Shown: positions 15,807 to 18,689 of the stretch, piece after piece
Numbering within the stretch: the stretch's first letter is position 1
Layout of the letters: each line of letters begins with the position of its first letter
Assembly: GCA_036522515.1 (NCBI GenBank)
Contig: DATDFQ010000056.1
Span: forward strand, 186,001 to 250,000
DNA from: Bacteroidota bacterium
Lineage (GTDB): Bacteria; Bacteroidota; Ignavibacteria; UBA10030; SZUA-254
Reading direction: 5' to 3'
DNA: 64,000 nt
Program-made: the position numbers and the translations under genes
Notes under the pieces: model-generated
What the model was told of the DNA's origin: nothing
Databases searched by the model: none
What the model saw: the letters and a program-made list of their open reading frames with translations, nothing else

Positions 15807-17489
15807 TCATCTCCTCTCAAACACAAGAAGCGCCGAAGCCGCCTTCACCCTGTAGTCTGACCCCTTCACGTTCCAGTCATACCTCGTCGAGTCGGCCGAT
15901 ACGATCTCGGCGACTCCCACCGTTGAGTAGTGATCCGTAAGGTAAGACCGAAGCCAATCGAGTATATGGGTCTCGGATCCGGGCCGCTGCGCCCATGAGG
16001 CATACGTCGTGACGAAAACGATGAACTTCACCTCCTGAGATTCGATTTCACGGATCATATCCGTCTGCATCCAGAGCGCATCCGGGTGCGGCACCATCAG
16101 GTTGTAGGTGTCGATGTACGAGGTTGCCGATTGCCTTCCCGAGTAAAAACAGATCTCGGGTTCAGAGCCGAGCACGGCGATCTTGTCGGTGGGGGCGCTC
16201 CGTGAGGCGATGAATTCAGCCACCTGTACGGCCTCCGGAAACGGGTTGGCCCCATAGGTATCCCGGAGGATCTTTTTCATATCGTCCCGGAAAAAGTATC
16301 CCCGCTGGCTGAACAGACCGGTCGCGATTGCGACAGCAACGAGTCCGGAGGCGGCGATCAGAGACAGTCTGCCGCCGGGGCCGCCCGGGGTTCTCAACCG
16401 GACGAGATTGGCAAAGCTCCCCGCGAGAAGGGCAACGGCGGGAAGGACCATGACGAAATAATGGGGCCGGAACAAAAAGCCCGGACAGACGGCGAGGAAG
16501 GAAAAAAGTGCGAAAAGTACGGGGAAGGATTTTTTTACGTTCAGCCCCGTCTGGAATGGCAGTGTGAGCATCCCCAGGAGGCCCAATATCCAGAGGAGGA
16601 AAAAGCCGTCCACCACGCGTGAAAAATTGCCCCAGAAAAGACCCAGGCCTTCGGACATCGACGCCTGTGATCCGAATGTCGAGGCGTAAACGACCGCCCA
16701 GTACCAGAACTTTTCAAACGCCCCTATCGCATACAACCAGAGGATCGCCGCCGAAAGCGGCAGGAGCGATCCGAGCACAAGCCCGGTAAGCTTGAGGACG
16801 GTTTCCTTGCCCGGCCGGCGGGCCCCGGAGCCGAGGGAGTGAAGAACGGCGTATGTCACCGAGAAGAGAATGAAAAAGATCGCCGCCTGTTTCATGACGA
16901 GGGCGACGCCGCTCGCCACACCGGACCACACGTAGTATCTGACTCTCCCCCCGTCTTCCAACGCCCGGAGCAAAAGGAATACCCCGCCGAGAGCGGGGAG
17001 GACGACGAATTGAGTCGCATGGGTGGCGAAACCGTTCGTCGATACGCTCAGCGAAAGAATCGCGAACCCTGCTGCCGAGATGATGCCGGTAAATCCCCCG
17101 GCTATTTTTTTCCCGAGAAGAAAGAGCAGAACGGTGCTGATCGAGTTGACCAGAAGCAGCCCGAGGTGGATCCCCACGGTGGTCTGTCCGAACAGGGACA
17201 TGATCAGGGCGTACATGAGGTAGACGCCCGGGAATTTGATATCATACGCCTGCGTGTAGAGCGGGATTCCCTTGAGAATCTGTTGCCCCATGTAGGCGAA
17301 TTCACCCTCATCGCGCTCCAGGGGAATTCCCAGGAGCCGGAACCGCAGCAATCCGACCAGAAGGAGGATCAGGGCAAGAAGAAACCACTCCGCCGCCTTC
17401 CGGCCGCGGCTGTCCTCCCCGGCGAAACCGGGCTGATTTTTGCCGGATGTTGGTCCTTCCGGGCCCCTTCTATGGAAAAAGAATTTCAT
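15807..17489 (-). CDS. GT-C fold glycosyltransferase (ArnT/PMT-like, family GT39/GT83)
   Basis: 560 residues with about 12 hydrophobic segments. The first extracytoplasmic loop has the catalytic acidic motif LERDEGEFAYMGQQIL followed by YDIKFPGVYLMYAL, the hallmark of dolichyl/undecaprenyl-phosphate sugar transferases. The C-terminal soluble part (from about residue 430) includes KIAVLGSEPEICFYSGR and KFIVFVTTYASWAQ. It probably transfers a lipid-linked sugar to an envelope acceptor (lipid, protein or polysaccharide); the acceptor cannot be inferred. ATG at 17489, weak ribosome site. Confidence 0.82.
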   Translation of the reverse strand: MKFFFHRRGPEGPTSGKNQPGFAGEDSRGRKAAEWFLLALILLLVGLLRFRLLGIPLERDEGEFAYMGQQILKGIPLYTQAYDIKFPGVYLMYALIMSLFGQTTVGIHLGLLLVNSISTVLLFLLGKKIAGGFTGIISAAGFAILSLSVSTNGFATHATQFVVLPALGGVFLLLRALEDGGRVRYYVWSGVASGVALVMKQAAIFFILFSVTYAVLHSLGSGARRPGKETVLKLTGLVLGSLLPLSAAILWLYAIGAFEKFWYWAVVYASTFGSQASMSEGLGLFWGNFSRVVDGFFLLWILGLLGMLTLPFQTGLNVKKSFPVLFALFSFLAVCPGFLFRPHYFVMVLPAVALLAGSFANLVRLRTPGGPGGRLSLIAASGLVAVAIATGLFSQRGYFFRDDMKKILRDTYGANPFPEAVQVAEFIASRSAPTDKIAVLGSEPEICFYSGRQSATSYIDTYNLMVPHPDALWMQTDMIREIESQEVKFIVFVTTYASWAQRPGSETHILDWLRSYLTDHYSTVGVAEIVSADSTRYDWNVKGSDYRVKAASALLVFERR

Positions 17490-17576
17490 GCAGGTATCGA
17501 TCCGATATGCTCTGAACGCACCGCTGGTCCAATTCGCCGATCAATGTAAGACATTTTTCAGTGGCACGAAAGGTAT

Positions 17577-17905
17577 TTAAATCGGGGGTGCCGGTTGGAT
17601 TTCAACCCCCGATTCAAAAGAACGCAGGCTAAAGCCTGCGCCTACCACGCCCGAGGCGTCCCAATATGCATTCCGCCGCTCCGCGGCGGAACGAGAACCG
17701 GGGTATCGGTAGCCGCAAGCTTTAGCTTGCGGGTTCTTGATCGAGGAGTCGTGCCATGGCGGGAAAAAGACCGCAGCCCAAAGGCTGCGGCTACCCTCCC
17801 CGAATGATCGGGGCAGCCTGAGGCTGCGGTTACCAAGCCCGAGGCGTCGGTAGGCGCGACCTTCAGGTCGCGTGCCGTTCAACGCAGGCTAATGCCTGCG
17901 ACTAC
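17577..17905. repeat. large repeat island upstream of the glycosyltransferase gene
   Basis: A chain of palindromes with no ORF of its own: AATCGGGGGT/ACCCCCGATT (17579-17614), CGCAGGCT/AGCCTGCG (17623-17640), TTCCGCCGC/GCGGCGGAA (17671-17691), an 88-bp composite element (17708-17795), CCCCGA/TCGGGG (17798-17813), GCAGCCT/AGGCTGC, CGCGACCT/AGGTCGCG and a last GCAGGCT copy. The linkers (for example around GAGGCGTCGGTAG) are also shared with the islands near 36.3 kb and 47.6 kb. Confidence 0.9.
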
Positions 17906-17957: not shown

Positions 17958-18031
17958 AAAAAAAGCACGGGGCGAGTGTGGCATTCCAACTTGGGAGGCG
18001 AAGTCAGAAACCGTGGATCCCGCCCACGTGC
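17958..18031 (-). ncRNA. candidate small RNA with own promoter and intrinsic terminator
   Basis: Reading the minus strand, a promoter (TTGACT, 17 bp, TATCTT at 18066-18038) predicts a start near 18031. The predicted 5' end, GCACG-T-GGGCG (18031-18021), pairs over 10 bp with one bulge to CGCCC-CGTGC (17974-17965), directly followed by seven T (17964-17958). The enclosed 46 nt contain weak internal pairing (CCAAGTTGG region). There is no ORF. The unit is therefore about 74 nt: promoter, closing stem, loop, terminator. I do not recognise the family; it lacks 6S, SRP, tmRNA and RNase P landmarks. It is divergent from nuoA. Confidence 0.6.
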
Positions 18032-18037
18032 AGTTCT

Positions 18038-18066
18038 AAGATACAACAGCAGGTTTGAAAAGTCAA
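18038..18066 (-). promoter_or_regulatory. sigma70-like promoter for the candidate small RNA
   Basis: TTGACT (18066-18061), 17-bp spacer, TATCTT (18043-18038), read on the minus strand. The predicted start is 7 nt downstream, exactly where the closing stem begins. Confidence 0.65.
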
Positions 18067-18169: not shown

Positions 18170-18198
18170 TTGACTTTCTGGCATATTCTTCCTATATT
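18170..18198 (+). promoter_or_regulatory. sigma70-like promoter of the nuo operon
   Basis: TTGACT (18170-18175), 17-bp spacer, TATATT (18193-18198). Transcription would start near 18205, giving a leader of about 50 nt. That leader contains the palindrome CAGTTG-A-CAACTG (18232-18244), 10 bp before the nuoA ATG, possibly an operator or leader hairpin. A CCCG-tt-CGGG palindrome lies upstream at 18107-18116. Confidence 0.75.
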
Positions 18199-18254: not shown

Positions 18255-18689
18255 ATGATCACTGACTTCGGCAGGGTTTTCATTTTTTTTATCATCGGGG
18301 CGGTATTCGTCGCCGGGGGCCTGGTCACTGCATGGCTGGTGCGTCCGAGTCGTTCCTACCCGGGGAAACTTACCTCCTACGAATGCGGCGAAGAACCGGT
18401 GGGAGGCTCCTGGGTCCAGTTCAACATCCGGTTTTACGTCCTCGCCTTGATCTTCCTGATTTTCGACGTCGAGATCGTCTTTCTCGTGCCCTGGGCGGTG
18501 GTCTATCAGAAACTCGGGGGCTATTCGTTCGTCGAGATGATGATTTTTCTGGTCATTCTGGGCGTCGGGTACGCCCACGTTTGGGTAAAGGGGGACCTGG
18601 ACTGGGACCGGCCCCAACCCAACATACCGGTCATGAGGCGCGGGACGCCTCTCCAAACGGAGCCGGTCTCTGAAAAAGCGATCGCATAA
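18255..18689 (+). CDS. nuoA: NADH-quinone oxidoreductase subunit A
   Basis: 144 residues with three membrane helices. The conserved loop [20 protein letters not shown] (about residues 42-61) carries the Cys of the quinone-site loop, and [18 protein letters not shown] follows with the family's acidic residues. First gene of nuoABCDHIJKLMN. The C-terminal 20 residues are polar and extended. Start ATG 18255 follows a weak AAGAG. Confidence 0.97.

Follow-up and report, generated by a model that had tools for sequence, protein, structure and literature searches.

The unit beside nuoA

The window (the whole stretch of DNA that was analysed, 64 kb in length) belongs to contig C56 of a 3.5-Mb genome, in which the unit described below is present once. 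The unit lies on the minus strand next to nuoA. The features of the locus, with the evidence for each, are as follows.

18255..18689, plus strand: nuoA, complex I chain 3, neighbouring gene (Pfam PF00507, E 6e-35)
18170..18198, plus strand: divergent nuo promoter TTGACT-17-TATATT, neighbouring and outside the RNA (promoter scan; a similar TTGACTTT...TATATT stands before nuoA in relatives)
18038..18066, minus strand: sigma-70-type promoter TTGACT-17-TATCTT (sequence and 11 of 12 homologues)
17958..18031, minus strand: small RNA of about 74 nt, T run included (fold and covariance-model matches in 12 of the 15 genomes of the family)
18019..18031, minus strand: 5' arm of the closing stem, GCACG-U-GGGCGGG (fold; two-sided changes in 9 of 13 model pairs)
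17980..18012, minus strand: inner hairpin GGUUUCUGACUU - CGCCUCCC - AAGUUGGAAUGCC (nearly invariant in the homologue alignment)
17993..18000, minus strand: apical loop CGCCUCCC, complement of GGGAGGCG, putative seed (identical in 11 of 12 copies)
17965..17976, minus strand: 3' arm of the closing stem, CUCGCCC-CGUGC, which doubles as terminator stem (fold and covariation)
17958..17964, minus strand: seven-T run, end of the intrinsic terminator (sequence; homologues also have a T-rich tail after the stem)

The first-pass annotation had proposed an unannotated small RNA gene at this place, made up of a promoter, a closing stem and a terminator, and this layout was confirmed. On the minus strand, TTGACT (18066-18061) is followed by a 17-nt spacer and TATCTT (18043-18038), exactly as had been described, and the compact unit of about 74 nt begins at G18031 and ends with the seven T (17964-17958) into which the 3' side of the stem had been said to run. 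The closing stem is present, but it is longer than the 10 bp first given, having 5 + 7 = 12 bp with one bulged U in the window, and the inner hairpin had been overlooked, although this hairpin, loop and stem together, is the most conserved part of the RNA. It consists of 12 bp with the arms GGUUUCUGACUU / AAGUUGGAA-U-GCC, one bulge, and the loop CGCCUCCC. The unit had been described as free of open reading frames; no conserved reading frame was found, and AUG is absent in two of the homologous copies (genomes G007 and G002).

Taken by itself, the window sequence gave modest evidence. The unit folds with z = -3.55, and an equally good fold was reached in only 1 of 200 shuffles, while the scan of the window found 7 promoter-like matches against 4.7 expected, so a single match is not above chance and the single-sequence evidence is insufficient by itself. 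The case for a small RNA gene is firm because the unit is kept in relatives, as shown below.

Between the RNA and the next gene in the window, a cluster of palindromic repeats was observed at 17576-17905, comprising AACGCAGGCTAAAGCCTGCGCCTAC and its variants (four copies of 25 nt) and giving terminator-like matches. The claim that the unit holds the only clear intrinsic terminator in the window was thus overstated, since such matches also come from the repeats at 17600-17900.

The gene beyond these repeats encodes a PMT_2 membrane glycosyltransferase (15807-17489, minus strand) and separates the RNA from the adenosyltransferase gene, a place at which it is not found in most relatives; judged from this gene order, it is probably a lineage-specific insertion. 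It is co-oriented with the RNA and begins some 470 nt past the end of the T run, as would be expected if the RNA were a leader, that is, a riboswitch or attenuator of this gene. In most relatives, however, the first gene called downstream of the RNA codes for a cobalamin adenosyltransferase (window homologue, PF01923) and is convergent, which leaves nothing to lead, and a leader function is therefore very improbable.

Structure conservation and covariation

Homologues were searched by blastn over 60 relatives and then with a covariance model built from six sequences. By blastn, the unit was found in 10 further genomes, all of them in the same family (f1), together with one extra match (G020) confined to the promoter region. 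With the covariance model, the unit was found in 12 of the 15 genomes of the family, in a single copy in each. The weakest match in the family, in G002, rose from E 3.8e-4 to 2.8e-11 with a second model that includes the G002 copy.

Covariation was assessed after 12 sequences had been aligned by fitting them to the model, which gave 10 distinct rows. Standard pairs were present in 98.4% of cells versus 88.3% in shuffles, and in the closing stem two-sided changes were observed in 9 of 13 pairs (26 cells); none of these values was reached in any of 500 shuffles, although fitting an alignment to the structure biases such counts towards structure. When the partner columns were slid as a control, pairing fell to 37-45%. 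The same exchanges were seen in the six-sequence alignment before fitting and in the raw sequences (GCACG/CGUGC, UGCAUG/CAUGCA, GAGCAUU/AAUGCUC and GAGCAGC/GCUGCUC), and nine relatives, each folded singly, gave a common shape with z between -3.4 and -6.8.

The inner hairpin showed a different pattern. Its stem is near-constant on both strands, with few changes (U-G to C-G or U-A, G-U to A-U), all of them one-sided, and pairing is mostly kept. Even in the diverged G002 copy, in which other positions have moved, the loop letters CUCCC are retained. Upstream, 11 of 12 copies have kept the promoter TTGAC[TA]-17-TA[TC]NNT, with 5-7 nt between its end and the RNA.

The palindromic repeats nearby, at 17600-17900, would suit the view that the unit is a chance hairpin or a decayed repeat, but the covariation, the conserved promoter, the invariant core and the presence of one copy per genome all speak against this origin, which has a negligible probability. 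Nor is the unit a decayed form of a known element; it matches nothing in Rfam. Conservation beside nuoA and the strong covariation of the closing stem support the interpretation as a small RNA gene, and from these comparisons the unit is almost certainly a functional structured RNA gene.

Distribution in the family and position relative to nuoA

The RNA was shown to be restricted to one family. Searches of the phylum, the class and other families gave nothing convincing outside f1. Two weak matches there were taken as chance, one being an almost perfect inverted repeat where a contig ends (L073) and the other a poor fit with broken stem pairs (L074). The covariance-model search with filters off found no homologue near nuoA in 26 genomes of other families, an architecture scan around nuoA of other families likewise gave nothing in the part of the loci covered by its results, and the exact core was absent from viral contigs. 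The exact core was found in nine MAG records, named Ignavibacteria, Ignavibacteriae, Ignavibacteriales, Bacteroidetes and Chlorobiaceae. Within the family, the covariance-model search detected no copy in three genomes of genus g4, even though they carry this nuoA, indicating that the RNA is not essential everywhere.

Different hairpins were observed near nuoA in two of these g4 genomes. In G014 (L051), AATAGCCGTGAGC...GTTCACGGCTATTTTT lies upstream of nuoA and faces it, and in G004 (L053, about 2040-2080) a hairpin of the GAAGCCATGCAAC/GTTGCATGGCTT type stands before nuoA.

The arrangement beside nuoA is conserved. In all 10 genomes that could be assessed for synteny, having the RNA and nuoA on one contig, the RNA is divergent from nuoA and starts roughly 140-310 bp from the nuoA start; in G010 the contig ends. 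The description of the RNA as lying upstream of nuo is thus true as a conserved position, but nuo as its target is unsupported, and in G002, where no close homologue of this nuoA was found, the diverged copy is located elsewhere.

The constant position would be expected of a cis-acting regulator, in which the RNA or its transcription tunes expression of the nuo operon. Against this stand the two promoters, which point apart and do not overlap, and the nuoA leader, whose pairing with the RNA was no better than that of shuffled sequences in the five genomes with a placed nuoA start. In addition, the G002 copy lies elsewhere, the g4 genomes carry this nuoA without the RNA, and a function in nuo alone would leave the invariant core unexplained. 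Cis regulation of nuo is accordingly considered unlikely.

Proposed mode of action and relation to known RNAs

The unit has its own promoter and terminator, a conserved structure and no reading frame, as trans-encoded small RNAs do, and a free-standing trans-acting small RNA is the best explanation as a whole, with a probability of roughly 0.55. Transcription from its own housekeeping-type promoter would yield a free-standing RNA of about 74 nt, terminated by its own closing stem and T run. The outer stem would serve as scaffold and terminator, a role in which pairing is kept while the letters change. The inner hairpin would display the unpaired C-rich loop CGCCUCCC together with the conserved flanking strand GAYCCAC. 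The complement of the loop, GGGAGGCG, contains the Shine-Dalgarno-like GGGAGG, and the loop may pair in trans, without Hfq, with such G-rich stretches of mRNAs; the paired loop would then stop ribosome entry and cause repression. For this loop-pairing mechanism in particular, our analysis puts the chances for and against at about even.

No match to the Hfq profile PF17209 was found in the 15 genomes of the family, while control genomes did give matches, and the RNA was not placed in the class of Hfq-dependent sRNAs, which presupposes Hfq in the host. In sRNAs with a C- or UCCC-loop, among them RepG of Helicobacter and RsaE of Staphylococcus, an unpaired C-rich segment presumably contacts G-rich or Shine-Dalgarno sites; the C-rich unpaired segment is common to these RNAs and ours, a likeness that serves as a lead only. 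A documented precedent is B11 of Mycobacterium abscessus, which represses through C-rich loops, the eccB4 5' UTR having a six-G tract that could pair (PMC10470900). A reference title quoted in the same article reports that 6C acts via C-rich loops without RNA chaperones. Like B11 and the actinobacterial 6C, the present RNA is short, structured and intergenic with a C-rich hairpin loop. However, B11 and 6C have two stem-loops with a run of C in each, whereas this RNA has one nested hairpin with a single loop CGCCUCCC; they also belong to a different phylum, there is no Rfam match to 6C, and no relationship is claimed. Trans pairing without Hfq is favoured because of the near-constant C-rich loop, the lack of detectable Hfq and the B11 precedent.

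The target search gave no support for specific mRNAs. The loop complement was absent at all nuo gene starts examined, and its occurrence at gene starts in the window revealed no target. GGGAGGCG-ATG occurred 200 times versus 85 for its reversed control in the RNA-bearing genomes and 14 versus 21 times in g4, while the permuted control GGGAGGGC-ATG and its reversed form gave 112 versus 129 and 4 versus 17, respectively. The excess of GGGAGGCG relative to the permuted motif is alike with and without the RNA, indicating that it reflects composition and is no evidence of targets. Among 30 sampled GGGAGGCG sites, 2 precede a plausible gene start.

The main rival to trans pairing without Hfq is a protein-binding RNA, in which the invariant hairpin binds a protein, as a sponge or within a ribonucleoprotein, and mRNAs do not pair with the loop. 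A nearly constant inner hairpin that includes its stem and changes on one side only would be expected in that case, as would a target search that yields none. No candidate protein was found, however, and the diverged copy holds to the loop letters CUCCC despite its shifts elsewhere. The CsrA type, including a CsrA sponge, was dropped because GGA is not conserved, the GGA of the 3' arm being AGA in two copies. Overall, protein binding is possible but clearly less probable than the trans-acting small RNA. Somewhat more doubtful still is a new, family-specific class of RNA whose constant hairpin a protein or the ribosome would recognise, making it a global regulator in Hfq-less bacteria and not an ordinary antisense sRNA.

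That no known RNA family could be recognised was borne out by Rfam 15, which gave no match at the gathering score across the 64 kb and, with E up to 5, just two sub-threshold chance matches on neighbouring repeats. 6S RNA (RF00013) is, like this RNA, a free-standing small RNA of bacteria, but it forms an extended hairpin of some 180 nt (187 model positions) that has a promoter-like bubble at its centre, and identity with 6S was ruled out by the 74-nt size and by RF00013 candidates elsewhere in G002, G008 and G013, all of which carry this RNA. These candidates (L135, L136 and L137, in G008, G013 and G002, respectively) score 34.7-38.2 bits, below the gathering score of 46.4, and are possibly divergent 6S RNAs of this lineage.

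The open-access literature gave no description of this RNA, and a search for Ignavibacter small RNA together with nuoA returned nothing; little seems to be on record for small RNAs of uncultured Ignavibacteria-type lineages. The RNA is most aptly described as a new family within a known kind, the intergenic bacterial sRNA. An exact model is now at hand for a family-wide RNA whose position is fixed and whose loop is constant. Its hosts have no detectable Hfq, and Hfq-free riboregulation thereby becomes testable in Ignavibacteria-type lineages.
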